DNA of 62,376 nt. Origin: Bacteroidota bacterium. GTDB lineage: Bacteria > Bacteroidota > Rhodothermia > Rhodothermales > UBA10348. The DNA is taken from the NCBI GenBank assembly GCA_029262835.1, contig JAJCYQ010000061.1, forward strand, positions 1 to 62,376, written 5' to 3'. A program made the position numbers and the translations under genes. Of this stretch, positions 18,544-32,772 are shown in pieces (within the stretch, counting starts at the first letter, position 1; every line of letters starts with the position of its first letter). Below the pieces are notes generated by a model, which did no database searches, had not been told where the DNA came from, and was given only the letters and a program-made list of their open reading frames with translations.

Positions 18544-21500
18544 GTGAGCCCTGCCACCAAAAAACGTACTTCACTGCGCGCCGCGCTTTCTCTTGTCACT
18601 GCGGGCCTGGTGGTAGGACTCTTCATCTACGGCCTGCCTGCACCTTCGTCGGACGCGGACCGCGCCCTCGATCGCGGCGCTGAACCCAAGTCCACCAAAG
18701 CAGAAAAGGGGCATCCGGACCGCTTCCAACAGATGCAGGCGCATATCCGCACGGCAGAGGGCGAGAGCAAGCAGGGCTACACGCCGTCCTATCGCATTGA
18801 GGCGCTCCGCGCGGCTCGCGCGGCCCGAAAAGGCGCCGCTGCACTGCTTCCCTGGGAGGAGCGCGGCCCGTCAAATGTGGGGGGGCGTACGCGCACCATC
18901 GTCGTCGACATGCGTGACCCATCGGGCGACACCTGGCTGGCCGGGAGCGTGGGTGGTGGTATCTGGCGCACAACAACGGCCGGACAGGACTGGGAGCCGC
19001 TCACGGACGACTGGCCCACGCTGTCCATATCATCCATTGTCCAGGCGCCATCCAACCCGGATATCGTCTATGCCGGCACGGGAGAAGGTTTTTTCAATGT
19101 CGACGCCATTATTGGCACCGGCATTTTCAAGTCGCTCGATGGGGGGCTCACGTGGTCGCAGCTCACATCGACCTTCGGCCTGGCCGATTTTAATTTCGTG
19201 AACCGGCTGATCGTAGATCCGCAGGACGAAAATATCGTTGTCGCCGCCACCAATACGGGCCTGTTCAGGACGGCCGATGGCGGCGCTTCCTGGGCGCTGG
19301 TCGCCGACCCGGGAGGCCGTGTTGCGCAGGTGGTCCATGAGCCCGGGGATTTCAACATCCAGTATGCCGCCGTAACGGGCGTAGGGGTCTGGAAATCCCT
19401 GGATGCGGGGCAGTCCTGGAGCGCTTCGAGCGACGGGCTCTCTCTCGAACCCGGTGCACGTGTTGAGCTTGGCGTATCGCCCGTCCGGCCGGGTCGTGTC
19501 ATTGCCATGGCTGAAGTCACCGAGGGGCAGGAAACCATCCATGTATCGGACAACCGGGGCGCGCTCTGGGGAACGCTCGCGCAGTCGGGTACAACCGATA
19601 TTGCACGCGACCAGGGCTGGTACGACATGGCCGTAACGCCGCACCCGTTCAATGAGGACGTGGTTTTCGTGGGCGGCGTGAACATGCACCGCGTCACGCT
19701 CAGCGGGGAAGGCACCTTTTTCAGCGCCGAGGTCGAGGAAAACGGAACGCGCTCCTTCCTGACAAAAGTCAATTTCGGTGGCGAATTCTGGGATGGTGGC
19801 ATGCGCCTCGGAACGGCGGACGATGAAGCCGTGATCGCTCCTGAAGATATCGTATCGGCCGAAATCCGTTTCGGTCCCGGGCGCTCCCAGAAGGCCCACC
19901 GCTTCACACCTCCCGACGGCCCGGGCATCGCGTTCTCTTCATACCCATTCGCGGACTATGTGGACGTGCCCTTCGAGGTATGGGATATCGAGAACAACCG
20001 GCAGCTGCACGTCTCTTTCCGGGACCGTCTCGGAGACGGCGCCTTCAACCTGATTCCGCGGGACGACAACAACCTGGGCCGCGAGTACATCCTGATTCAC
20101 GCCAAAACCTATACCCCGTCGGCACCGGACCCACAGATTTCGGCGAGCGGCGGCCTGGTGCAGGATCTGATGTATTTCATCTGGCCCATGCTCCAGGATG
20201 AGGTGGAATGGACGCCCGAAAACCTGCCTGAATCCTCACTTCGATTCACGCTGACATCGGGCACGGCTCCGGCGGCTTTTGCCGAGACGCAGATGGGCGC
20301 TGCCGTTCACGTGGACCATCACATCCTGCTACCGCACATCACAGACGCGGCGGCCGAGCAATTTGAGCTCATTTCGGGGAACGATGGCGGCGTATGGCAT
20401 TCGCCCGACGGCGGCGCGACGTGGAACGAGCGCAGCCGTTTTTACAACACGAGCCAGTTCTACGGTCTGGACCGGAAGCCAGGGGGTGCACAGCTCTACG
20501 TGGGCGGCATGCAGGACAACGGAACGTTCCGCTCGTTCGCGCCCTTCATGGGCAACGTGCCGGGCTGGACGCCGGCTATTGGAGGCGATGGATTTGACGC
20601 CGTTTGGCACCAGGAAAACGACACCTGGATGATCGGCGGATTCCAGTTCAACGGATTCCAACGATCGCTCGACGGCGGTGTGAACTGGTCTTCTGCTACC
20701 AGTGGACTCACCGATACCGGCGAGAGCCCCAACGCACCGTTCATCAACTCGCTCGAACGCAATGTCTTCGACTCGGATATTCTGTTCGCCATTGGTGGAT
20801 CGGGGGTCTGGAAGAGCACAGATTTCGGGGCGTCGTGGCAATTGAAACCGATCGCCGCCTCGGCGTGGGGCTTCCGCTCGTCATCGCGCGGCGTCGTACG
20901 GCCGTCGCTCGCCTCGGGCGACGTGGTCTGGGCCGGCTTTGAAATGGATCCGGTTGACAATGGCGGCGGCGACATCCTCGGCCAGATCCACGTATCGACC
21001 GACGGTGGGGAAACGTTCTCGGCCACGACGCCATCCCCACTGTCTCCAGCGCCGCTTTCGGGACTGGCTACGCATCCATCCGACCCGAACACCGCCTATG
21101 CCCTGTTTTCCGTATCAGAACAGCCGAAAATTCTACGCACACGTGACCTTGGCCAGACGTGGGAGGATATCTCCGGGTTTGACGAGGGGTCAAGTGGTGT
21201 GCTGAGTGCGCGAGGCTTCCCCAATGTCGCCGTCTACGACCTGCTTGTCATTCCGGACTTTCCGCACATCCTGTGGGCCGGAACGGAGGTTGGCCTGTTC
21301 GTGAGCGAGGACGGTGGCGCATCATGGCAACTCTCAGACAGTGGACTGCCGTCCGTATCCATATGGCGCATGAAGGCGCTTGGAGACGAAATTGTGATGG
21401 CAACGCACGGCCGCGGCGTGTGGGTCGTACCCATTGATGCCGTGACGCCGCTCACCACGGACGTTTCGGACGCCAACGACGCGCTTCCGCGCGCGCTGGC

Positions 21501-21762
21501 TCTGACAAGCGTCTACCCGAATCCGCTCGGCCGTGAGGCAACCATTACCTTCGAACTGCCAGCCACCGAGCAGGTGCGCCTCGAAGTGGTGGATCTCAGT
21601 GGCCGACGCGTCGCCGTGCTGGACGATGCCGTGCGCGTCGCCGGGCGCCACACGGTCCAGTGGAGACCGGGACCGCTTGCCGCTGGCACATACTTCATCC
21701 GAATTACGACGCCCTCGGGGAGCGAGACACGTACCGTCGTGAAATCCGGACGCGTGGAATGA
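18544..21762 (+). CDS. Secreted Asp-box (BNR/sortilin-like) propeller protein with T9SS sorting domain
   Basis: A 1072-residue exported protein starting at a GTG. A basic N terminus and hydrophobic stretch (LVTAGLVVGLFIYGLPAP) form a signal peptide. At least nine Asp-box repeats of the type G-(I/L/V)-(W/F)-x-S-x-D-G-G-x-x-W can be seen, e.g. GIFKSLDGGLTWSQ, GLFRTADGGASWAL, GVWHSPDGGATWNE, GLFVSEDGGASWQL, indicating one or two beta-propellers like VPS10/sortilin or exo-sialidase blades. A non-propeller insert lies between about residues 390 and 590. The last ~80 residues (SVYPNPLGREATITFELP to the end) are a Por-type sorting domain, so the protein is probably exported by the type IX system and anchored or released at the surface. 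No catalytic residues were identified. Confidence 0.8.
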   Translation: MSPATKKRTSLRAALSLVTAGLVVGLFIYGLPAPSSDADRALDRGAEPKSTKAEKGHPDRFQQMQAHIRTAEGESKQGYTPSYRIEALRAARAARKGAAALLPWEERGPSNVGGRTRTIVVDMRDPSGDTWLAGSVGGGIWRTTTAGQDWEPLTDDWPTLSISSIVQAPSNPDIVYAGTGEGFFNVDAIIGTGIFKSLDGGLTWSQLTSTFGLADFNFVNRLIVDPQDENIVVAATNTGLFRTADGGASWALVADPGGRVAQVVHEPGDFNIQYAAVTGVGVWKSLDAGQSWSASSDGLSLEPGARVELGVSPVRPGRVIAMAEVTEGQETIHVSDNRGALWGTLAQSGTTDIARDQGWYDMAVTPHPFNEDVVFVGGVNMHRVTLSGEGTFFSAEVEENGTRSFLTKVNFGGEFWDGGMRLGTADDEAVIAPEDIVSAEIRFGPGRSQKAHRFTPPDGPGIAFSSYPFADYVDVPFEVWDIENNRQLHVSFRDRLGDGAFNLIPRDDNNLGREYILIHAKTYTPSAPDPQISASGGLVQDLMYFIWPMLQDEVEWTPENLPESSLRFTLTSGTAPAAFAETQMGAAVHVDHHILLPHITDAAAEQFELISGNDGGVWHSPDGGATWNERSRFYNTSQFYGLDRKPGGAQLYVGGMQDNGTFRSFAPFMGNVPGWTPAIGGDGFDAVWHQENDTWMIGGFQFNGFQRSLDGGVNWSSATSGLTDTGESPNAPFINSLERNVFDSDILFAIGGSGVWKSTDFGASWQLKPIAASAWGFRSSSRGVVRPSLASGDVVWAGFEMDPVDNGGGDILGQIHVSTDGGETFSATTPSPLSPAPLSGLATHPSDPNTAYALFSVSEQPKILRTRDLGQTWEDISGFDEGSSGVLSARGFPNVAVYDLLVIPDFPHILWAGTEVGLFVSEDGGASWQLSDSGLPSVSIWRMKALGDEIVMATHGRGVWVVPIDAVTPLTTDVSDANDALPRALALTSVYPNPLGREATITFELPATEQVRLEVVDLSGRRVAVLDDAVRVAGRHTVQWRPGPLAAGTYFIRITTPSGSETRTVVKSGRVE

Positions 21763-21857
21763 TCTGCGAGTCTTCTTATCGCAAATAATACGTTTCTGGA
21801 CGTACTCTCACAGCGGACGAACCGCCGCTTTTTCCTCGTCCACGAATTTTGCAGATC

Positions 21858-23834
21858 ATGTCCTTTTCCCGAGTCCGTGCCACGTGCGTGCGCTGGACGC
21901 TTCTCCTTGCCGGTGTGCTGCTTGCGTCCGCACTCCTGCCCGACGCCTCCGTTGCCCGCCAGGCCAACGTGCGTGTGGTTTACCAGGTGGAAGAGGTTCG
22001 CAGTGGACGGTTTACAGCCAATGTGTTCCTGACCAATGTGACGCCAGCACCCATCGCGTCCTGGTCCCTGGCGTTCGAGTTCCCATCGCCTATTGATCAG
22101 ATGGACAACGTCACCTGGACGCAGACCGGCGGACTCTTCCGCGTGCAGGGCGCCGGGTGGACACACCGCATTGATCCCGGCGAGGTGGTATGGTTCACCA
22201 TTCATGGCGTCGCGAGCGGACCCCTGGCGCCACAACCGGCCTCCTGTGCCTTCAACGGGGCCGCATGCACCATCGAGGACGCCAACGAGCCGGATCCAGC
22301 TGAAACCGATCTTTCTCGGCTGCGCGTGGCGGCCTGGATTGCCGAAGAAGACCAGACGACCTACACGGGACACATTTTCATCCGCAACCCGACGGAAGTG
22401 GATCTCGAGCCGTGGCGTATGACGTTCTCCACCTCGTCCCTCATTACCGGTATGGAAGGGGTCGATTGGACGCGTAGCGGTTCGTCCTACGAAGTGCGCG
22501 GAACAGGTGCTACAAGTACCATCCGCGGACAGGATTTCATCTTTTTTACCTTCTCAGGCGTGCATTCCGGGAGCGCTCAGCTGCCCACATCGTGCCAGAT
22601 AAACGGCGTTGCCTGTACGTTTGTGGAGCCGGATGAGCTCATTGAAACGCCGCGTATGAACCTGTTTTTCAAGGTCGAGAAAATTACAGGATCGATTTTC
22701 GAGGGATTCATCGAGCTGATCAACCCGGCGGCCGAGGACCTGTCTTCCTGGACGCTGCGCTTCAATCTGGAGGACCGGATTACGTTTGTGGGCGGCGACG
22801 TGTCGTGGTCGCGGGCCGGTGACCTGTATACGCTGCACGGGGTCAACGGCAAGCGGCGCGTCCGCGGAGGCGGATCGGTCTTTTTCCCCATCGCGGGTAC
22901 GTTCGAGGACGATATTGAGCCGCCAAGCGACTGCACCGTCAATGGGGTCGTGTGCCTGATTGAAGCCGAGGGCACGACCGTGCAGCCGGGCGAAACCGAT
23001 CCCGGGACGGGCGGCGGCGACACGGGCGGCGGTGACACGGGCGGCGGCGACACAGGCGGCGGTGACACAGGCGGCGGCGACACGGGCGGCGGCGATACGG
23101 GCGGCGGCGACACGGGTGGCGGCGATACGGGCGGCGGCGATACGGGTGGCGGCGATACGGGCGGCGCGTGCCCGGATGGGGTAGCGCCCACCTCTGAACT
23201 TCCAGACATTGATTTCCGCTTTTTGAGCCTGACCTCGTCGCAATACGTTGCGCTCGTTCGTATTACGAACAACACGAGCGGATTCATCCGTGGCTGGAGT
23301 CTGCAGTTTTCCCTCATTGAAAATATGAGCGTTGGACGGCACTGGGAAAGCGTGTTCACCCAGAACGCAGACGGATCTTACCTGGTCACGAACATCGAGT
23401 CGAATGCCTGCATTCCTGCAGGTGAAAACATCACGTTCGGATTCGACGGCAGTCACGACGGCACGTTCGCCGAGCCCCTGGGCTGTGCTTTTGACAGCCG
23501 CTCGTGCACGTTCCTGCGCATGGTCCAGGTCTCCAATGAATCGGAAGTGGGCCGTGAGCTTCCAGGCGGTATCCAGTTGGGTACGGCCTACCCCAATCCG
23601 TTCCATGACGAGGCGAGAATCGACGTCAGCCTCGGACAGACAAGCCACGTCCGCGCCACGCTGTGGGACGTATCGGGGCGTATGGTGCGCGTCCTGCACG
23701 AGGGCGTGCTCGCGGCAGGCAGCCACCACGCGCTGCGCATTGAAGCCGGTGCGCTGCCCGCGGGCCTGTATCTGGTGCGCGTCGAAAGTGGGCAAAGACA
23801 CGCTGAAACACAAAAAATCCTCCTTGGACGCTGA
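21858..23834 (+). CDS. Secreted four-domain CBM2-like protein with GGGDT linker and T9SS sorting domain
   Basis: A 658-residue exported protein with a clear signal peptide ending near ASVARQ. It carries three consecutive ~110-residue beta domains with the CBM2 pattern (VYQVEEVRSGRFTANVFLTN, SWSLAFEFPS, WTQTGGLFRV, then a Cys-x-Asn-Gly-x-x-Cys end). A (GGGDT)x10 linker and a fourth domain (DFRFLSLTSSQYVALVRITN) follow, then a C-terminal T9SS sorting domain (GTAYPNPFHDEARIDVSLGQ onward). No catalytic domain is present, so it probably binds a polysaccharide or acts as an adhesin/scaffold. The ATG at 21858 begins the signal peptide. It follows the propeller gene on the same strand after 95 bases. 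Confidence 0.75.
   Translation: MSFSRVRATCVRWTLLLAGVLLASALLPDASVARQANVRVVYQVEEVRSGRFTANVFLTNVTPAPIASWSLAFEFPSPIDQMDNVTWTQTGGLFRVQGAGWTHRIDPGEVVWFTIHGVASGPLAPQPASCAFNGAACTIEDANEPDPAETDLSRLRVAAWIAEEDQTTYTGHIFIRNPTEVDLEPWRMTFSTSSLITGMEGVDWTRSGSSYEVRGTGATSTIRGQDFIFFTFSGVHSGSAQLPTSCQINGVACTFVEPDELIETPRMNLFFKVEKITGSIFEGFIELINPAAEDLSSWTLRFNLEDRITFVGGDVSWSRAGDLYTLHGVNGKRRVRGGGSVFFPIAGTFEDDIEPPSDCTVNGVVCLIEAEGTTVQPGETDPGTGGGDTGGGDTGGGDTGGGDTGGGDTGGGDTGGGDTGGGDTGGGDTGGGDTGGACPDGVAPTSELPDIDFRFLSLTSSQYVALVRITNNTSGFIRGWSLQFSLIENMSVGRHWESVFTQNADGSYLVTNIESNACIPAGENITFGFDGSHDGTFAEPLGCAFDSRSCTFLRMVQVSNESEVGRELPGGIQLGTAYPNPFHDEARIDVSLGQTSHVRATLWDVSGRMVRVLHEGVLAAGSHHALRIEAGALPAGLYLVRVESGQRHAETQKILLGR
23010..23159 (+). 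repeat. 15-base coding tandem repeat, ten copies (GGGDT)
   Basis: Ten uninterrupted 15-base units encode Gly-Gly-Gly-Asp-Thr. Units differ only at third codon positions (GGC/GGT, GAC/GAT, ACG/ACA), so the array is selected at the protein level while remaining a substrate for slippage. It forms the linker between the third and fourth CBM2-like domains. Copy number may be collapsed or variable in an assembly. Confidence 0.95.
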
Positions 23835-23927
23835 TTCTTCACACTTCCTCTGACCACACCGCTTGAAATCACCTGTGCCGCAGCCGAGTATATGAAAGAA
23901 GTTGTTTGCCACTTATTGGTGTCCGTC

Positions 23928-24512
23928 ATGGACAGGTCCCGGCGCGCGTATGCCCCTCTCGCCGCCACAGCACTCCTCATGGTGCTGGTGGCCGGGACGG
24001 CTGCGTCCCAATCCGCACCGGGCTCCAGGGTGCTTGCGACGGGGTCCCACACGGTCCGGCTCGGCGTCGCTCCCATCATGGTCATGGCGGTCAGTGGCAA
24101 TCCGATGCCTCTCCTTCTGGACCGCAATATGGTCGCAGGTCGCACCACGGTCAGCGATGAAAGCACATTTTACAATCTGACGTCCAACGTAGACAACGTG
24201 CTGATTGAAGTCAGTCTGGACCGGCCCATGCCGCGCGGCACGCGCCTATCGGTATCGCTCGCCAGCACGCTTGGGCGGTCAAGTGGATGGGTCAACGTCA
24301 CACGCGGGGGCCGAGAGGTAGCTGCCGTTACAGGCATGTCCCGGGGGCTTGAGAACGGACAGACCATCTCCTTTAAACTGGAAGTCGGCCCCCAGGTGAA
24401 GGAGCTTGATTTCGAGGATCGACTGCTGACCATCACGCTGACCGATCCCGTCTCGCGCCAATCGCACACGGCCTATCAGAGCGTACAGTTCGGCGTCATG
24501 TCCGCGCTTTGA
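23928..24512 (+). CDS. Secreted beta-rich protein, possible fibre subunit
   Basis: A 194-residue protein of no recognised family. MDRSRRAYAPLAATALLMVLVAGTAASQ is a good signal peptide, which decides the ATG at 23928 over an in-frame ATG at 23892. The mature part is beta-rich and ends in alternating strands (LLTITLTDP, YQSVQFGVMSAL). A stretch beginning DESTFYNLTSN and continuing to GTRLSVSLAS is reminiscent of DESTRILWNRT to QTYRLYAEAV in the secreted protein at 29370-29831, including spacing. It converges with the sigma factor gene 49 bases away. A sequence resembling a sigma-28 promoter (GAAA-N14-GCCGAGTA) lies just upstream. A structural subunit role is inferred. Confidence 0.6.
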   Translation: MDRSRRAYAPLAATALLMVLVAGTAASQSAPGSRVLATGSHTVRLGVAPIMVMAVSGNPMPLLLDRNMVAGRTTVSDESTFYNLTSNVDNVLIEVSLDRPMPRGTRLSVSLASTLGRSSGWVNVTRGGREVAAVTGMSRGLENGQTISFKLEVGPQVKELDFEDRLLTITLTDPVSRQSHTAYQSVQFGVMSAL

Positions 24513-24561: not shown

Positions 24562-25329
24562 TCAGGCCGCCTGGCGCAGTGATACCTCGACCGAAGGGCG
24601 CATTTTTTCGAGCGCCCGCCGGCGAATCTGCGACACGCGGGCTTCGGATATCCCGTAGAGCGCACCGATTTCGACCTGCGTGCATCCCTCCCTGAAAAAC
24701 AGGTCCAGAATGTCCTTTTCGCGCTCGCTGAGCCCCTTGCCCGCCCGCGCGAGGTGACGCGATACGTCGGCCCATTCGGCATCCTCGAAGGCTTCCGACG
24801 CCATCGTGTTTTCGAGCATTTCGACGAGTTCGGTTTCGGATGAGTCGCCGACCGGAGCGTGGAGCGAGAGGCGCTCCCGCCGTCTGGCATCGAGCCGCGT
24901 CGCTTCCACATGGGAAACGTCCACATCGAGCGCCGAGGCCACGTCCTGCACGGTCGGCCACGCCCCGTGCTGCTGCGCCAACTCGTTTTCCACGCGGTAC
25001 ATACCCGCCACCTTCGCACGACGGCGCCTTGGAAGGGAATCCACGCGCCGCATGAGGTCAATGATTTCTCCGCGGATGCGCACCCACGAAAACGTCACAA
25101 ACCGGACATCCCGTTCGGAGCGGTACTGGTCAAGAGCCTGCAATACGCCCACAACACCCGCCTGGAACAGATCGTCGAAGGACAGGATATCGCCCACGGG
25201 CGCCCGGAGCCCGGATATGATATGCCGGATGATGGGGTCCATGGAGGAGACCACCCTGTCGCGATTTGCCTGCGTGGGATGGGCGAGCCAGGCGCGGACG
25301 TGGTCCTCGGTCTTGTACGTAGATGACAT
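24562..25329 (-). CDS. RNA polymerase sigma factor, FliA/WhiG (sigma-28-like) type
   Basis: A 255-residue sigma-70 family factor lacking region 1. Region 2 spans about residues 25-100 (DPIIRHIISG, FDDLFQAGVVGVLQALDQY, FVTFSWVRIRGEIIDLMRR). Region 3 is around WPTVQDVASALDVDVSHVEA. Region 4 contains the helix-turn-helix (LSEREKDILDLFFREGCTQ, then GISEARVSQIRRRALEKM). The size and the IRGEIIDLMR motif place it with FliA/WhiG/SigB-like factors rather than ECF or RpoD. No flagellar gene is nearby; instead it lies on the same strand 192 bases downstream of the usher-like operon, suggesting it may control surface structures. No anti-sigma factor is evident. Confidence 0.88.
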   Translation of the reverse strand: MSSTYKTEDHVRAWLAHPTQANRDRVVSSMDPIIRHIISGLRAPVGDILSFDDLFQAGVVGVLQALDQYRSERDVRFVTFSWVRIRGEIIDLMRRVDSLPRRRRAKVAGMYRVENELAQQHGAWPTVQDVASALDVDVSHVEATRLDARRRERLSLHAPVGDSSETELVEMLENTMASEAFEDAEWADVSRHLARAGKGLSEREKDILDLFFREGCTQVEIGALYGISEARVSQIRRRALEKMRPSVEVSLRQAA

Positions 25330-25521
25330 GGCGGCAGTCGGTTGGGTTTGCTGCCTGTTTCCATGTCAATTCGAGTGCCGGAAGCGGCTATGCACGCTTC
25401 ATGGGCTTGGGGAGCCGTTTTAAGGGGACCGGAAAACCCCGCCTGTTTCGCTGCCGGTACACGCGCGCTGCGCTCGCGCAACAGAAGAACGGTTCGGACA
25501 AGTCCCATACGCGCCGGAAAC

Positions 25522-28500
25522 CTATTGTCCGGCAAGGCGCCGGATGGCCTCCCACTCGGCCCCCGATAGCGGGCCGCGGGCCGGCAGGACGAGCCGCGCA
25601 CCGAGTGGCAACACGTCTGGCGAGCGGAGGACGTCACGATTGGCCTGCCAGATCCGGATCCAATGCCACTGACTGGCATAGTGCCGGCGTGCCAGCACAA
25701 AGAGCGTATCACCTTCTTTGACGCGGACCGCTTCCTGGTCGGCTACCTCTGGCGTCGCGGCCGTACTATCTTCCGCGGCGGCGCCCGGCCGCGCGGCCGC
25801 ACCGGGCTCGCCCGATGCCGACACGCTCACCGCAACACCCGCACCGGACGTTACAAAGCGAATACGCCGCTCGGTCGGTTCCAGGCGCAGAACGGCCTCG
25901 CCGACACCCCCGGGAATAAGCGTAACGGTCTTCACGGCAGGATCCGTCCGATACTCGTCGGGGAGTGTCCTCTCGAGCACAGACACCTCCCAGGTCCCGG
26001 GTACGAGTGGGGGAAACTGTGCGCGGCCAGCGCCGTCTGTCAGGCGGCGGAATCGCATGTCTCCCGAGCGCGCTTCAACCACCAGGCCAGACAGGGCAGA
26101 CCCATCCAGGCCGCGCCCGAGCGCCGCATTGAGCGCCGCATTTTCCCTTCCGGTCGTAATCGTCGCCGTCAGGCGTGCCGCCTGCACGATGCCGACATCT
26201 ACCCTGCGCGGCGAAGCCTCATCAACCTCAAGCGGAAACGGCAACGTCGGCATCCGGCTCAGCCCTATGCTTTCCTGGTCGAGGAGGATGAACCGCTCCT
26301 CGCCCGGCATGATGAGCTCGGCGCGTCCTTCACTGTCGGTTTCCGCCCGGACGCGTCCTGCCGAAAAAACGACGCCCTCAAGAGGCTCGCCCGTTTCTTC
26401 GTCGCGCACACGGAGCGATATCACAGTATCAGGATCGGGGCCGGTGAACGGCGCCCTGACCGTAAACGGTATCCTGTAGGCCAGGCTGAAGGTTCCTGTG
26501 CGCACGTCGGAAGAAAAGCTGGTCTGCGACCCGCGGGCGCGGAATTCCAGTTCGTGCGAGGACCAGAGATCGGCCGCGATGCGCGCATCAAAAAGTGTGA
26601 ATGTCTGCGAAAACGTACCCGACTCCCGGCTCTGGAAGGCCGACGCCGATGCGCTCAGGCCGCGGCCTGCGTCATAGGAAAGCGTGGAGCCGATGGTTAC
26701 GCGCTCCTGATTGGTTGGGCTGAAAAAAGTAACTCCTTCCAGATACGACGCCGTAAGGCTGAGTGACCAGGACCCGAGCACTTTGAACGCCGAACCACGA
26801 ACGGACGAGAACGTGCCCTCGGCAAAGCCTGCGTCGTCAATTCGGCCCGCCTCGCCTGCTGCATTGATCCCGAACCCGCGGCGATTGAAGTTCACACGCA
26901 GCATAACGCTCTCCTCGGCCCGGTCCAGCCCCGTCTGCTGCACGCGCCGGTCCTGGAACTGGCCGAGCAGCATGGCCTGGAGGCGGGCTCCGCCGACGGC
27001 AAAAGACGCCCCGGCACCGCCGCGGAAAAGCCGGTTCTCGAGTGCGCGATCCGCACTCCTCTCCGCATCGAAAAACCGGCGCTCCGCGCGGCCCAATCCC
27101 TCGAGCCGGATCCAGTGGCTGCCACGCACGGCAAAACTGCCCTGTACGCGCTCGGAATTCTGGATCCCTCCGAGGAAAAACGGGTCGGCCGCCTCGGCGC
27201 GTCCCGAGAAAACAATCCATGGAAGCGATCCCTGCGCCGAAATCTGCACGGCGTTTCCTTTCCCGACGTCATATTGTCCGTGCGCCACCTCGGCCGAGAG
27301 CTCCGTGCCATCGACAGCAAGCCACCGGGCCGCCACGGACGCGGCCTCACCCGGTTCGAATTCACCACGGGCGAGGGCGCTCACCCCAACGGCAAACCGG
27401 CGATGGGGCCATACCTGCACGCCTCCACCGGCACGCTCTGTCTCCGGAAACACATGCCGTGTGCGCGAAACAAAGGCCGTGCCCTGCAATCGCTCACGGT
27501 CGTAGGACACTTCACTCCCAAACCCGAAAAATGACGTGTCGAGCAGGTCGGACACCTGGTAATTCTGGTCCCCCATCCGCAAGCCAACGCGCTCTCCTTC
27601 TACGGACGCTGCATACTCGTCCCGCTCCCCGAACGAAGCCGAGGAGCGCATGTCCGGTCCGCGAAGTCGGGCGGCAACAACCCGGCCCCCGATCCTGGTG
27701 GCGGGAAGGTCAAGCTCGGCCTGGAAATCGGCGACGCCAGATTCCGTGGTCGCGCGCGACGTAAAAAGCACAGGCAGTCGCCCTTCTTCCAGTTGTCGGG
27801 CCTGTCGCCTGACGGGCACGATCTGCGTTGTGACACGGGCTTCGCCTGCCGCGGTGTCGCCTCCCGGAGGCTGCGCGGTGACCCGGAGCACGTGCTCCAA
27901 CTCATTGACCAGATCGTCCCGCGAGCGGGCTGAAACGCTGATTTCAGCGCGTGCCGCCGGGGCAAGCTCCACACTCCCACTCGACACGCGGACGTCGTAG
28001 CCGAGCGAACTCTCGGCGATGATCTGAAACGTCGCCGTGTGATTACCGGTGTTCTCGACAGCGAGCGTTGCCGCGATGGGCGCGCCCGCACGCACGCGCG
28101 ACACCGCCTCGACAAGCGAAACGTCGACTTCCGTCTGCTCGGCTACCTCTATGACGGTTTCGGCGCCAGCCAGTACGCCCTCGTCCTCAGACTGCGCTTG
28201 GCGCAGACGGAACGACACGCGCCATGCACCCGCCGCGGCAGACGCGGGAATCTGAATCGATACAATGCGCGTGGCGGGACGGCCAGGTCCGGCCCGCATT
28301 GCGGCCGGCGGTATGAGGATACTCCAGCCGGGAGGCAGTGCAGGATCTATCCGAAGCATCCGCGGCGCGCCCGACAGCACGCGGACAGGCAAACTGACCA
28401 CCGACCCGGGGTCGGCCTCGCGACGCTCGGGGACCGACATGGAGACATCCTGCGCCCGGGCGGCCTGCGGCGCAACCACACAGGAAAGCGCCAGGCCAAG

Positions 28501-28539
28501 AAGCAGGAGGGCGGTCTGTGTGCCCCTCATACCGGACAT
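25522..28539 (-). CDS. Usher-like outer-membrane beta-barrel protein with Ig-like N terminus and C-terminal LysM
   Basis: A 1005-residue exported protein (signal peptide LLLLGLALSCVVAPQAARAQ). Residues ~25-230 form two Ig-like domains; the second (VENTGNHTATFQIIAESS) resembles NEW3. Residues ~250-720 alternate hydrophobic and polar positions with many aromatic strand ends (FAVGVSALARGEF, SWSLSLTASYLEGVTFF, TGTFSLAYRIPF), as in a large barrel. A carboxypeptidase-regulatory-like domain (ETGEPLEGVVFSAGRVRAET) and a linker follow, then a LysM domain from about 938 (VKEGDTLFVLARRHYASQWH). The gene starts two bases after the chaperone-like gene ends. The layout suggests an outer-membrane assembly/translocation pore tied to peptidoglycan, analogous to a chaperone-usher system. 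Homology to classical FimD ushers is not demonstrated. Confidence 0.65.
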   Translation of the reverse strand: MSGMRGTQTALLLLGLALSCVVAPQAARAQDVSMSVPERREADPGSVVSLPVRVLSGAPRMLRIDPALPPGWSILIPPAAMRAGPGRPATRIVSIQIPASAAAGAWRVSFRLRQAQSEDEGVLAGAETVIEVAEQTEVDVSLVEAVSRVRAGAPIAATLAVENTGNHTATFQIIAESSLGYDVRVSSGSVELAPAARAEISVSARSRDDLVNELEHVLRVTAQPPGGDTAAGEARVTTQIVPVRRQARQLEEGRLPVLFTSRATTESGVADFQAELDLPATRIGGRVVAARLRGPDMRSSASFGERDEYAASVEGERVGLRMGDQNYQVSDLLDTSFFGFGSEVSYDRERLQGTAFVSRTRHVFPETERAGGGVQVWPHRRFAVGVSALARGEFEPGEAASVAARWLAVDGTELSAEVAHGQYDVGKGNAVQISAQGSLPWIVFSGRAEAADPFFLGGIQNSERVQGSFAVRGSHWIRLEGLGRAERRFFDAERSADRALENRLFRGGAGASFAVGGARLQAMLLGQFQDRRVQQTGLDRAEESVMLRVNFNRRGFGINAAGEAGRIDDAGFAEGTFSSVRGSAFKVLGSWSLSLTASYLEGVTFFSPTNQERVTIGSTLSYDAGRGLSASASAFQSRESGTFSQTFTLFDARIAADLWSSHELEFRARGSQTSFSSDVRTGTFSLAYRIPFTVRAPFTGPDPDTVISLRVRDEETGEPLEGVVFSAGRVRAETDSEGRAELIMPGEERFILLDQESIGLSRMPTLPFPLEVDEASPRRVDVGIVQAARLTATITTGRENAALNAALGRGLDGSALSGLVVEARSGDMRFRRLTDGAGRAQFPPLVPGTWEVSVLERTLPDEYRTDPAVKTVTLIPGGVGEAVLRLEPTERRIRFVTSGAGVAVSVSASGEPGAAARPGAAAEDSTAATPEVADQEAVRVKEGDTLFVLARRHYASQWHWIRIWQANRDVLRSPDVLPLGARLVLPARGPLSGAEWEAIRRLAGQ

Positions 28540-28541
28540 GG

Positions 28542-29366
28542 TCAGAGGGTCAATTCAAACTGACCACCGAACACCGCATCGCTGCCGGCATCGACCACAA
28601 AAATGGCCTGGTAGGTACCGGCAGGAAGGCCTTCAAGTTCAATGCGCTGCCGGGTGGACGTATTGGGGTAGAGTCGGTACTGGACTCCGGGAAAGGGCCC
28701 GAACTCGGCACCATCGGCATCAAAAAGGCGCATGTAGACGTCGGGGCGCATCATGACCTGGCCCACATTGAGCACATCGATCTGGAACACCGTGCGTCCG
28801 TCCTCGAGCGCCTGGAGACTGACATTTTCAAGCTCCACTCCCGGCTCCGCGCTTGCCGAACGGACGTGCGTAGCCAGTTGCACGCCGTAGCGCGTGACCT
28901 GCCGAAACCCGACTTCCCGCTCTGCGGGAGGATCCTCGCCGAGCGTCGATTCGGCCGACTCCCGGTCAATCGCCTCCACCATCAGCATGCTCCACCAGGA
29001 GCCGACGCCGGCGCTGTCAGGCACATTGATCTGGTAGGAAACAGTGACCGAACCGTTCGGCGGCACGGTCGCCTGCTCCGGCGAAAACGTAATCCAGGGA
29101 GCGTTCGAGCGCGCCGTCGTTCCGGGCTCATCGTACACGTTCGTGCCATCGGCAAAAAACAGATAGTCCCGCTGATACACGCGCGCCTGCTGCAATTCAT
29201 TCGTCTCGTTGTCAATCGTAACCGACCCGGTGAGCGTAGCGCCGGGTTCGGTTTCCAGATCATGGGCCAGCTGGCCACGCACCGTAATCTGCGCCGTGGC
29301 CACTAAAGGCGCGGCCAGGGTCAGAATAGACAGGACCAGGAGCCGGTAGAAGCAGGCATGCGCCAT
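28542..29366 (-). CDS. Periplasmic chaperone-like protein with two Ig-like domains
   Basis: A 274-residue exported protein (signal ends near VATAQ). The first Ig-like domain has ETEPGATLTGSVTIDNETNE, the strand QARVYQRDYLF and WITFSPEQATVPPNGSVTVS, a pattern shared by pilus chaperones and by DUF916-type domains. The second domain (VELENVSLQALEDGRTVFQI to GGQFELTL) completes a two-domain layout of PapD-like size. The canonical Arg/Lys pair of PapD cannot be assigned with certainty. Only three bases separate it from the upstream subunit-like gene and two from the usher-like gene, so the three are one operon. Alternative: a peptidoglycan- or host-binding DUF916 protein. Confidence 0.6.
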   Translation of the reverse strand: MAHACFYRLLVLSILTLAAPLVATAQITVRGQLAHDLETEPGATLTGSVTIDNETNELQQARVYQRDYLFFADGTNVYDEPGTTARSNAPWITFSPEQATVPPNGSVTVSYQINVPDSAGVGSWWSMLMVEAIDRESAESTLGEDPPAEREVGFRQVTRYGVQLATHVRSASAEPGVELENVSLQALEDGRTVFQIDVLNVGQVMMRPDVYMRLFDADGAEFGPFPGVQYRLYPNTSTRQRIELEGLPAGTYQAIFVVDAGSDAVFGGQFELTL

Positions 29367-29369
29367 GGG

Positions 29370-29831
29370 TTACTGCTCGGTAAGGGTGAACGTCACTGTA
29401 TGCTGGTCGCTCAGACCGGTTTCACTGGATGCGTCGCCAATCGTCGCCTCCGCAATGTAGCGGATGTTGGCAAAGCCTGCTTTCTTCTTCTGGATATTCA
29501 CGATCAGATCCGTGTCGTGCATGCCATCGCGAAGCTCGACGCGGCCGGCCGGCGTGCCGCGTTTGACGCGCACGGCCTCGGCGTAGAGCCTATAGGTCTG
29601 GCCAGGCGCAAACGTCGAGACGGTTACTTTCGAGCGCGCCTCGGTCCGATTCCAGAGAATGCGCGTCGACTCGTCCGTGTCCTGGAACGCATCGCCGCCA
29701 TAGGGCGAGGGTTCGACACTCAGCTGTACGGCGCCTCCGCCAAGCATCATCAGGCGCTGGGCCGACGCTGGTGCGGCCAGTACGCCGAGCAGCGCGCCGA
29801 GGGCAAGGATATGTAGGAGTCGGTGGTTCAC
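29370..29831 (-). CDS. Small secreted beta-rich protein, possible fibre subunit
   Basis: A 153-residue protein with a clear signal peptide (MNHRLLHILALGALLGVLAA, cleavage after ASAQ). A GTG at 29831 best fits the signal peptide; an in-frame GTG at 29864 would add 11 residues and overlaps the stop codon of the upstream small gene (GTGA). The mature protein of ~125 residues is beta-rich, starts with a hydrophobic strand (AVQLSVEPS) and ends in TVTFTLTEQ, as structural subunits often do. It is the first secreted product of the subunit-chaperone-usher-like operon. No family was recognised. Confidence 0.6.
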   Translation of the reverse strand: MNHRLLHILALGALLGVLAAPASAQRLMMLGGGAVQLSVEPSPYGGDAFQDTDESTRILWNRTEARSKVTVSTFAPGQTYRLYAEAVRVKRGTPAGRVELRDGMHDTDLIVNIQKKKAGFANIRYIAEATIGDASSETGLSDQHTVTFTLTEQ

Positions 29832-29860
29832 AATCTGTAACTGTACAAATACCGTGCCGG

Positions 29861-30064
29861 TCACAATTCCCAGGATGGAAGATCGTTTCTCTCGGGGTTC
29901 ATCCGGTAGACAGGGCAGGCGGCACGCGCGGCGGCGTCGAGCCGGATCCAGTCCGGACGCTCACCGACCTGGCGCGCCGAAACGAAGCGGTGCATACGCG
30001 CGACGCGCAGCGGATCGGGGGTAATCTGGTAGAGGGGCTTCCAGGTTGTCTGGGCAGATGTCAT
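29861..30064 (-). CDS. Small cytoplasmic protein of unknown function
   Basis: A 67-residue reading frame (TSAQTTWKPLYQITPDPLRV at the N terminus, ending ERNDLPSWEL). It has high-GC third positions like its neighbours, is rich in Trp/Tyr/Arg, and has no signal peptide. Its TGA overlaps the upstream GTG of the secreted-subunit gene, the kind of arrangement seen with translational coupling. It would be the first gene of the surface-fibre-like operon. The ATG at 30064 is chosen; a longer frame to 30133 looks non-coding. No function can be proposed. Confidence 0.45.
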   Translation of the reverse strand: MTSAQTTWKPLYQITPDPLRVARMHRFVSARQVGERPDWIRLDAAARAACPVYRMNPERNDLPSWEL

Positions 30065-30294
30065 GGTCGTGGCGGTTGGTGTTGGCCAGAAAGAGGGCAA
30101 ACCCCGTACCAGACCGGTCGCCATGCGCTGCATCCATCAGAAACAGGCGCGAGGAGCACCTTGCGAGACCGGTAGGCCTGCGCTGTGTTTCGATTCCGAA
30201 ACAGTCCTGGGGCAATGGCGACACGGTGCGTATACTTGTATGCTCGTGGGCCGAGGGTCCGCGATTCGGGCAAACGTATCAAAACCGTGTTTCC

Positions 30295-31383
30295 GTGAGC
30301 AGTCAGCAGGCACCGTCCACGTCCGCCACTATTCTCGTTGTCGATGACAGCAAATTGAACCGGGATCTGCTCGGGGAATACCTCGATGCACTCGGCTACG
30401 CGTCTGAGGCCTGCCAGAACGGGGAGGAGGCGGTCACGCGGCTTGAAGAGCGCCCTTTCGATGCGGTTCTTCTCGACATCGATATGCCCGAGCTCGACGG
30501 ATATGGCGTGCTGGAATTCATGCGCACGCGCGACGAGCTGCAATTCATCCCGGTCATCATGATTTCCGGCCGGGACGACGTTGCGAGCATTGCCCGCTGC
30601 CTGGAGTTGGGGGCAACCGACTTTCTGTCCAAGCCATTCAACCCGAAGATCCTGGAGGCGAGGCTCTCTGGAAGCCTCGAGAAGAAGCGGCTTCGCGAAG
30701 CCGAGCAGGACCTGATACGAATGCGCGACGCCCTCACCCATATGATCGTGCATGATCTGGGTAACCCACTGTCGGTCATACAGATGAACCTCCAAATGAT
30801 GCGCATGCTCGGCGAGGGAGACACGGAGCGGCTGGGGCATCTGGATCGGGCGGCCTCGGCCATGGGAACCATGATCGAGTCCATGCTCGATCTGTCCAAA
30901 CTGGAATCGGGAACGATGCCCGTTCATCCGACCGACGTCGACATGGCCGCTTTCCTGGATCAGGTGGAGGCGGAATACGCGCCGTTTGCCTCGGACCGCG
31001 AGCTGTCACTCGTCGTGGACGTGGAAGAAGGCCTGCGGGCGAGGGCCGATGCACTGCTCCTTGGACGCGTCGTCGCCAACCTTCTGGCCAATGCGCTCAA
31101 ATATGCGCGGCCGGCCACACGCCTGCAGATTGCCGCCACCCGTCGTGATGGAAGCATACGACTGCTCGTCGAGGATGACGGCCCGGGTATACCCGACGAA
31201 CTGCATGAGCGCATTTTCGACCGGTACTACCAGGTGGAGTCGGCCGACTCAGGCATCCGGGCAGGCGTTGGTCTGGGGCTGGCCTTCTGTCGACTGGCCA
31301 TGGACGCGATGAATGGCGCAATCCGGGCGGAATCGGCCGAGCCGCACGGAACGAGATTTATCGTTACGCTTTCGGCGGCCTGA
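30295..31383 (+). CDS. Response-regulator/histidine-kinase fusion (REC-HK)
   Basis: A 362-residue soluble protein. A receiver domain comes first (ILVVDDSKLNRDLL, phospho-acceptor Asp 61 in LLDIDMPELDG, Lys in FLSKPFNP). A histidine kinase core follows: His 153 in MIVHDLGNPLSV, N-box NLLANALKYA, DDGPGIPDE and GVGLGLAFC. There is no membrane segment or sensor domain, so the kinase activity is presumably controlled by phosphorylation of its own receiver. GTG at 30295 gives the natural N terminus; upstream sequence is open but has no domain character. It is convergent with the sigma-54 regulator. A paralogue-like protein with the same layout sits at 37033-38199. Confidence 0.9.
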   Translation: MSSQQAPSTSATILVVDDSKLNRDLLGEYLDALGYASEACQNGEEAVTRLEERPFDAVLLDIDMPELDGYGVLEFMRTRDELQFIPVIMISGRDDVASIARCLELGATDFLSKPFNPKILEARLSGSLEKKRLREAEQDLIRMRDALTHMIVHDLGNPLSVIQMNLQMMRMLGEGDTERLGHLDRAASAMGTMIESMLDLSKLESGTMPVHPTDVDMAAFLDQVEAEYAPFASDRELSLVVDVEEGLRARADALLLGRVVANLLANALKYARPATRLQIAATRRDGSIRLLVEDDGPGIPDELHERIFDRYYQVESADSGIRAGVGLGLAFCRLAMDAMNGAIRAESAEPHGTRFIVTLSAA

Positions 31384-31401
31384 GCACAAGCACCCTGCGC
31401 C

Positions 31402-32772
31402 TCAGTACGGGATGCCGAACTTCTTGAGCTTGGCGTAGATATTTGAGCGCTGCAATTCGATCTCGTCAGAGAGCCGGGAAATGTTGCCCTCACATTCGGC
31501 AAGCCGGCGGCGAAGAAAGGCGGCCTCGGCCGCGTCACGGAAGTCGGCGATTTTTGGATGCTGCCCGGCCAGGTAGGCGATGGAGTCCTGCGGCGCCTTG
31601 CCCGGGTTGGCGAAGAGCTCCACGTCTTCGGCGCCTATCTCATCCTCGTCACTGAGCACAATCAGGCGCTCGACCGCATTGTGCAGTTCGCGCACGTTGC
31701 CACGCCACGGAAATGTGCGCAGGAGCTGCAATGCGCCCTTGGAAAAGTGTTTGCCGGGCATGCCATTGCGCACACTGAGCTGCTCACAGAAATGTGTAGC
31801 CAGGAGATCAATATCTTCCGTGCGCTCGCGAAGCGGAGGGGACTCAATGCGGATCACGGCCAGCCGGTGGAACAGGTCATCGCGGAAGGCGCCCGTCTCA
31901 ATGGCCTCTTCCAGGTTCTTGTTCGTCGCCGCTACGACACGCACATCGATGTTGATCGCCTTGTCGCCTCCTACGCGCCGCAGCTGGCTCTCCTGCAGCA
32001 CGCGCAGCACCTTGGCCTGCGCGGTCGACGACATGTCGCCCACCTCGTCGAGGAAGAGCGTCCCTCCATCTGCCTGCTCGAACGAGCCGATGTGTTGCTT
32101 GTGTGCGCCCGTGAAGGCACCTTTTTCGTGGCCGAACAACTCGCTTTCAATCAGTTCTCCGGGAATGGCGGCGCAGTTCAGCGCAATGAACGGGCCCTCT
32201 CGCCGATCGGACAGGTGGTGCACCCACTGGGCAATGAGTTCCTTGCCGCTGCCCGCCTCGCCTGTAACAAGCACGCGCGCTTCCGACGGCGCGGCCTTCT
32301 CGAGCAGCTTCTTGATACGCTTCATGGCCGCGCTTTCGCCGAGCAGCGGCGCAATGGAGGTATCAATTTTTTCGAGACGCGCCTTCATACGCGAATGCTC
32401 GCGCTGCAGCTTATCGGCATTGAGCGCGTTGCGGACGGTCACAAGGAAGCGCTGCAGGTTGGGTGGCTTGGGCACGAAGTCGTACGCCCCCTCCTTGATC
32501 GCCTCTACCGCCAACTCAATCGTGGCATTTGCCGTGAGCATGACGAAAGGAAGTTCTGGCCAGCGCGATTTGGCCGCCTTGAGCAGCTCCATACCATTCA
32601 TTTCGGGCATCATCATGTCCGAGAGAACGAGGTCGAAGGTGTCTTCTTCGATCTTCCGTAGTCCTTCCGCTCCATTTCCGGCTTCGACCACTTCGTACTC
32701 CTGGATGGTCATCAGCTCCTTCAGCGTGCGGCGAATGGAGGGTTCGTCATCGACAATCAGAAGACGTGGCAT
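31402..32772 (-). CDS. Sigma-54-dependent response regulator (NtrC family)
   Basis: A 456-residue activator with a complete three-domain layout. Receiver: LLIVDDEPSIRRTL, phospho-Asp 52 in LSDMMMPEMNG. AAA+ domain: Walker A GEAGSGKEL, sigma-54 contact loop GAFTGA, Walker B GGTLFLDEVGDM, and arginine-finger region FRDDLFHRLAV. A Fis-type DNA-binding helix-turn-helix lies at the C terminus (CEGNISRLSDEIELQRSNIY). It activates RpoN promoters when phosphorylated. It lies between two plus-strand kinases and is divergent from the propeller hybrid kinase (94 bases between starts), so the partner kinase is probably one of these neighbours. No RpoN-type -24/-12 site was identified nearby. Confidence 0.93.
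   Translation of the reverse strand: MPRLLIVDDEPSIRRTLKELMTIQEYEVVEAGNGAEGLRKIEEDTFDLVLSDMMMPEMNGMELLKAAKSRWPELPFVMLTANATIELAVEAIKEGAYDFVPKPPNLQRFLVTVRNALNADKLQREHSRMKARLEKIDTSIAPLLGESAAMKRIKKLLEKAAPSEARVLVTGEAGSGKELIAQWVHHLSDRREGPFIALNCAAIPGELIESELFGHEKGAFTGAHKQHIGSFEQADGGTLFLDEVGDMSSTAQAKVLRVLQESQLRRVGGDKAINIDVRVVAATNKNLEEAIETGAFRDDLFHRLAVIRIESPPLRERTEDIDLLATHFCEQLSVRNGMPGKHFSKGALQLLRTFPWRGNVRELHNAVERLIVLSDEDEIGAEDVELFANPGKAPQDSIAYLAGQHPKIADFRDAAEAAFLRRRLAECEGNISRLSDEIELQRSNIYAKLKKFGIPY

Follow-up and report, generated by a model that had tools for sequence, protein, structure and literature searches.

A candidate chaperone-usher-like fibre locus with a plugless barrel protein in a Rhodothermia bacterium

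Contig JAJCYQ010000061.1 of a Bacteroidota bacterium of the class Rhodothermia, analysed as a stretch of 62,376 nucleotides (the window, to which all positions refer), carries a locus that probably encodes a chaperone-usher-like pathway, assembling a surface fibre by donor-strand exchange. The direct basis of this reading is the genes themselves, their conservation, the pattern of N-terminal extensions in the subunits and the predicted folds. Four minus-strand genes, g1 to g4, run from position 30061 down to 25522. g1 (29861..30061) is an open reading frame (ORF) for a protein of 66 residues without a signal peptide. g2 (29370..29864) encodes a secreted immunoglobulin (Ig)-like subunit without an N-terminal extension, a candidate tip or first subunit that adjoins the chaperone gene. 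g3 (28542..29366) encodes a protein of 274 residues with two Ig domains, a predicted periplasmic chaperone by its fold matches and conservation, and g4 (25522..28539) a 1005-residue protein that AlphaFold2 and Foldseek mark as a usher-like predicted outer-membrane protein. On the plus strand, 23892..24512 encodes a second subunit; it has an N-terminal extension and is a candidate fibre subunit, recognised with profiles and found at the same place in six relatives. An earlier reading made from the letters of the window (the sequence-only reading) had placed g1 to g4 and a sigma factor gene on the minus strand, and all five ORFs are present there. It gave g1 67 residues, one too many, and junctions of 0-3 bases, which holds for g2/g3 (gap of 3) and g3/g4 (gap of 2) but not for g1/g2, whose ORFs overlap by 4 bases. 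Its four-gene anatomy is real and packed, but it overlooked the plus-strand subunit gene as well as conserved neighbours at 18544-23834 and 30046-32772. The g2 ORF opens with GTG; an alternative GTG at 29831 suits the signal peptide better and is the likely start.

Six relatives of several genera share one gene order: a BNR protein and a CBM2 protein with sorting tails of the type IX secretion system (T9SS), the 23892-24512 subunit, the sigma factor, g4, g3, g2, a receiver-kinase and an NtrC-type regulator (in relative L030 the BNR gene lies beyond the contig). Since all genes except g1 keep this order, as far as the contigs reach, at protein identities of 29-91%, the locus is not a chance arrangement. 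Among the core proteins the chaperone is the most conserved (58-90% identity) and the barrel the least (29-74%). On a different contig the genome itself carries a second such locus, made up of three subunits, a chaperone and a barrel protein of 1239 residues. A scan with the chaperone alignment yielded 80 loci across many diderm phyla, among them Bacteroidota, Ignavibacteria, Spirochaetes, Planctomycetes, Synergistota, Armatimonadota, Verrucomicrobia, Acidobacteria, Halanaerobiales and others; with F0, F4 and F2 as the subunit, chaperone and barrel profiles, the order F0(s)-F4-F2 is seen in nearly all of those long enough to tell. A search with hidden Markov models (HMMs) only, not chosen by motif, covered 296 genomes of the phylum; the chaperone turned up in 28 of them, in a patchy distribution, and F0-F4-F2 in 11 of the 20 places read; the same order also occurs on a Deinococcus plasmid. 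The conserved co-occurrence of subunit, chaperone and barrel genes, on which the sequence-only reading depended, is thus found in relatives and far beyond Rhodothermota. Four strong chaperone matches (L137-L140), all from a single family of the phylum, stand without a barrel or subunit gene that can be recognised.

The subunits show a pattern that fits polymerisation. The 23892-24512 product has the extension GSHTVRLGVAPI, whose residues 52-62 (SHTVRLGVAPI; 24045..24077, plus strand) form the predicted donor strand, as read from the column pattern over 137 extended subunits. In these, five successive columns contain large hydrophobic residues in 95, 3, 99, 7 and 99% of the sequences, a strict alternation, and the columns between and before the three high ones hold them in only 3-14%. 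Across the alignment, the distance between the signal-peptide cut and the first common strand falls into two classes: with cleavage sites assigned by a simple rule and not by a trained predictor, fewer than 13 mature residues precede that strand in 35 of 49 chaperone-adjacent subunits, compared with 2 of 124 encoded elsewhere (upstream or downstream). g2 and the 23892-24512 product both belong to the F0 family, and in the g2 ortholog of locus L045 about four residues precede that strand. In other phyla the extension-less role is filled by c0, a divergent secreted family of about 165 residues in which the absence of an extension was judged by eye. Extended and extension-less subunits (the latter of F0 or c0 type) occur together in 61 of the 80 loci, and no locus has both extension-less types. 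This is what donor-strand exchange leads one to expect, the first subunit having nothing to donate. Moreover, the C-terminus lies 1-3 residues past the last strand in 200 of 217 subunits, as expected if a chaperone holds it. Chaperone-usher systems are marked by an N-terminal donor extension and a first subunit that lacks it; both are seen here at the level of sequence, and we regard this pattern as strong sequence evidence for donor-strand exchange. Neither Pfam nor NCBIfam names the subunit and chaperone families: Pfam matches neither g1 nor g2, NCBIfam added nothing for g2 or g3, and a search of PHROGs gave no match.

g2 and g3 share one reading frame, separated by TAA-CCC, and were modelled as one chain with the TAA read as Gln (57 aligned rows, pLDDT 88). 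The g3 part is predicted as two tandem Ig domains, the architecture of chaperone-usher chaperones, and fold comparison supports the chaperone-like protein proposed from the sequence. Its closest fold is the WxLIP of E. faecium (9i25_C; Z 17.3 over 231 residues, 6.2 Å), followed by the chaperones CfaA (Z 13.4), FimC (Z 12.7) and CsuC (Z 12.1), a group in the range 11-13. Pfam gave g3 weak matches only, to Fn3, BACON and WxLIP domains, and the chaperone and subunit profiles, run against PDB sequences, gave chance matches only; the F4 profile recognises a Polaromonas PapD_N chaperone at 28.3 bits (hhalign 92%). Residues 158-168 (TRYGVQLATHV; 28863..28895, minus strand) are the predicted donor strand G1, a strand in the model with an alternating hydrophobic pattern in 80 homologs.

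Archaic and alternative chaperones grip the subunit C-terminus through Arg89 of domain 1 together with an Arg/Tyr pair of domain 2, Arg148-Tyr169 in EcpB and Arg174-Tyr196 in CsuC (PMC4654587). In domain 2 of the g3 family, R231 is present in 71 and Y252 in 77 of the 80 chaperones, 21 residues apart in 68 of the 69 having both, and the strand order of the model places Tyr252 in strand F, corresponding to those chaperones. The position aligned by eye with Arg89 (strand F1) of CsuC is Trp in 80 of 80, with Arg159 in G1 instead; because the scan for the 80 loci searched with chaperone motif patterns, it partly presupposes the invariance of W125-E131 and R159-Q163. Of the 14 strongest HMM-found homologs, 13 retain R159. 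From these patterns we infer that Arg159, Arg231 or Tyr252 may anchor the subunit.

The fold of g3 also fits a different function, that of a diderm counterpart of the WxL/WxLIP cluster, in which g3 would stay bound as a stabiliser within an unpolymerised surface coat and g4 would be only an anchor or exporter. WxLIP, for which an AlphaFold2 prediction has a strand donated into a gap of WxL to complete the WxL sandwich (PMC10599100), is the best match to g3; the F4 profile reaches 50.9 bits against a Cohnella DUF916 protein (hhalign 97%); and g3 is the sole match of the whole genome to PF06030 (WxLIP), though at 17.5 bits it falls below the cut-off of 27.3. However, g3 stops at the final strand of domain 2 and lacks a C-terminal transmembrane helix, the DUF916 loci inspected show no annotated barrel partner, and an alternating extension that most subunits carry and one lacks suits polymerisation, not coating. 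We therefore consider a coat of this kind unlikely.

g4 is the candidate outlet of the proposed fibre pathway. Its AlphaFold2 model (68 rows, pLDDT 86, pTM 0.56) comprises, on the minus strand, two N-terminal Ig-like domains (residues 31-245, 27805..28449; from DSSP of the model and a weak NEW3 match), a beta-barrel of about 26 strands without a plug insertion (residues 250-696, or 254-695 in the model, 26452..27792; from the model, structure comparison and homologs) and two C-terminal beta-sandwich domains (residues 703-888, 25876..26433), which hhalign relates (prob 95%) to their C-terminal counterparts in a usher-like Polaromonas protein. A LysM domain follows (residues 936-986, 25582..25734; PF01476, 26.8 bits over residues 939-986, cut-off 20.9). 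Two such sandwich domains after the barrel are also a hallmark of chaperone-usher systems. The description of g4 as a barrel with a NEW3-like N-terminus and a LysM was right as to the LysM, and the Ig-like domains are modelled, but the NEW3-like match remains below the Pfam cut-off (17.6 versus 24.4 bits); generic Ig/CarboxypepD_reg similarity was also found. In Foldseek against the PDB, FimD and PapC rank first (E 6.6e-13 downwards), with low TM-scores, so that the proteins do not superpose as wholes. In VIA the ushers score Z 14-17, and some alignments reach residue 887, so cover the C-terminal domains. On the evidence of the model, g4 is a usher-like protein and not a canonical usher. Its first Ig domain (residues 10-130) weakly resembles domain 1 of the chaperone, at 36 bits in the window pair, partly over the signal peptide.

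The tail after the second sandwich varies: it is a LysM in the group of the window, nothing in most homologs, and a SPOR domain above cut-off in six (L055, L058, L061 with two SPOR, L064, L086 and L120). LysM and SPOR are peptidoglycan-binding families, so the C-terminal end of g4 would lie in the periplasm. Hydrophobic helices replace the LysM in barrels of the second-locus type (L039 7607-11326; L032-L034, L036, L040) and in one other, an odd ending for an outer-membrane protein. These LysM, SPOR and transmembrane tails suggest anchoring to the wall or the inner membrane in some lineages.

Several findings weigh against a chaperone-usher-like pathway. No sequence relation is detectable between FimC and the g3 family or between FimD and g4. 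Neither Arg8 of classical nor Arg89 of archaic chaperones is conserved in the g3 family as read from the alignment, and among 20 HMM-found homologs R231 is kept in only 5 (Y252 in 18). The barrel of g4 has more strands than the 24 of canonical ushers and lacks a plug, its length being 421-488 residues in 68 homologs with no insertion above 26. MtrB, and not a usher, is its best match in VIA (Z 20.0, 408 residues, 4.9 Å). No adhesin was identified at the locus, and the incomplete Ig fold of the subunits, like strand insertion, is predicted, g2 having been modelled only fused to g3. The usher plug, the strand number, the family profile (PF00577 does not match g4) and the domain-1 arginine of the chaperone were all tested and not found, and for this reason we do not file the locus under the classical or archaic families; classical membership by sequence was ruled out, there being no family or sequence match. 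The sequence-only reading had itself named a barrel without a plug as incompatible with a usher, so that here its expectation is divided between FimD and PapC as top Foldseek matches and the missing plug. The gene set and fold matches favour the fibre assembly that it proposed, and the second, extended subunit is a part that it missed. The MtrB score, the strand number nearer 26 and the missing plug could alternatively mean that g4 is some other outer-membrane barrel (a porin, an MtrB-like sheath or a capsule-type export pore) with which the subunit and chaperone genes merely travel, but this is highly improbable given that many phyla keep the three genes side by side, that Foldseek puts ushers first and VIA takes in the C-terminal domains, and that these domains match those at the C-terminus of the usher-like protein in a DUF4402-PapD_N operon. 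The high Z also raised the possibility of an MtrB-type electron conduit, which was set aside, no cytochrome gene having been noticed among the window neighbours.

For the preferred chaperone-usher-like pathway, we infer chaperoning, strand exchange, assembly in a set order, export through g4, formation of a fibre and wall anchoring along the following lines. Signal peptides would take g2 and the 23892-24512 product into the periplasm, where g3 would bind each subunit, completing its Ig fold with its own G1 strand and clasping the subunit C-terminus between its two domains. g3 would then hand the subunits to g4, a barrel with two Ig-like domains on either side. The extension-less g2 would go first, as tip or cap, and the N-terminal extension of each following 23892-24512 product would displace the chaperone strand on the preceding subunit. 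The fibre would grow outward through g4, which the LysM tail would tether to peptidoglycan. Going further, and with slightly less than an even chance of being right, these loci could represent an old and distinct lineage of donor-strand fibre systems in many diderm phyla. Their assembly platform would be a plugless barrel, in some lineages tethered to the wall or inner membrane, and their chaperone would connect the chaperone-usher pathway of diderms and the WxL/WxLIP system of monoderms as descendants of one ancestor.

The sigma factor gene (24562..25329, minus strand, 255 residues) starts 192 bases downstream of g4 and is adjacent, not tightly packed. Its product clearly belongs to the sigma-70 family by Pfam and scores 161.6 bits against the FliA/WhiG model TIGR02479, under the cut-off of 189.6. 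Thus a FliA/WhiG-like factor does follow the operon on the same strand, as had been claimed, but with a sub-threshold score and at a distance. The genome has three FliA/WhiG-like sigma genes and no flagellin N domain, and a flagellar role was set aside on the latter ground. In the six relatives the gene keeps its place despite divergence to 42% protein identity, which together with the lack of flagellin makes a regulatory link to the fibre genes plausible. Nearly as good a case can be made that the factor serves unrelated genes only, its adjacency being the incidental synteny of one family: co-occurrence with the operon, as the sequence-only reading would have it, extends through this Rhodothermota subgroup but was not seen as conserved in other phyla, the second locus of the same genome has no sigma match, and the window contains no sigma-28 promoter consensus.

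Other genes flank the locus. The secreted product of the CBM2-T9SS gene (21849..23834, plus strand) combines four CBM2 domains with a T9SS sorting tail, and that of the BNR-T9SS gene (18544..21762, plus strand) has BNR/Vps10 repeats and the same kind of tail, as matched by Pfam; both are taken as surface cargo and are conserved in the relatives. The former has a long GGDT repeat linker and always stands beside the fibre locus in relatives. On the other side, as read from translations and relatives, are a receiver-histidine kinase gene (30046..31383, plus strand), whose ORF starts upstream of the likely start, and an NtrC-type response regulator gene (31402..32772, minus strand). T9SS cargo genes adjoin both loci of the genome, and their products may be surface partners of the fibre. 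An alpha-amylase/CBM48 gene (L039 5190-7556) adjoins the second locus in three genomes, two belonging to the genus and the third to a different one. g1 is 53-64% identical to counterparts in the two closest relatives (BLAST), and a comparable small gene (F20) takes its position in three further relatives.

Chaperone-usher fibres have a central part in bacterial attachment, and none of the libraries searched contains a family model for the branch described here. Archaic systems have been described from Proteobacteria, Cyanobacteria and Deinococcus-Thermus (PMC4654587); the present loci widen the subunit-chaperone-barrel logic to further diderm phyla, using subunit and chaperone genes without a Pfam or NCBIfam name. 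If the pathway works as proposed, fibres could be predicted at the gene level in many uncharacterised bacteria. It would also offer a test of how a wall-anchored usher is gated in the absence of a plug, and would connect pili with WxL surface proteins.

Among known systems, type V pili (FimA/Mfa1) are likewise strand-exchange surface fibres of Bacteroidota, made from lipoprotein precursors with proteolysis. They are not known to use a chaperone or usher, and, unlike their precursors, the subunits here have no lipobox that was noticed. The DUF4402-PapD_N-'carboxypeptidase regulatory' operons, such as that on a Polaromonas plasmid (L130), share the order of subunits, chaperone and barrel, and the chaperone and C-terminal barrel domains are related by hhalign; they differ in their DUF4402 subunits, a chaperone that passes PapD_N and a barrel protein apparently with a plug-like segment, as read by eye. 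That barrel protein (L130 2995-8336) is unrecognised by the Pfam usher model although the segment is readable, and similar proteins occur on plasmids of Novosphingobium, Sphingopyxis and Pseudoalteromonas. The literature searched (without subscription journals and most preprints, so that a prior description elsewhere is possible) makes no mention of DUF4402, and its only co-mention of 'WxL domain' and 'chaperone-usher' concerns another subject. With the WxL/WxLIP (DUF916-DUF3324) clusters of monoderms the present system shares the closest fold of g3, a significant sequence relation and predicted strand donation, whereas WxLIP carries a membrane helix and is not paired with an outer-membrane barrel. 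Compared with the archaic and alternative chaperone-usher pili (Csu, ECP, CFA/I), the locus differs in having no detectable sequence match to FimD or FimC, a plugless barrel of about 26 strands with Ig-like N-terminal domains and LysM, SPOR or transmembrane tails in its family, and a Trp where archaic chaperones have Arg89. It resembles these pili in its operon logic, its two-Ig chaperone, its extended subunits with one lacking the extension, a domain-2 Arg/Tyr pair at the same spacing in the closer homologs of g3, and a large outer-membrane barrel followed by C-terminal beta-sandwich domains.

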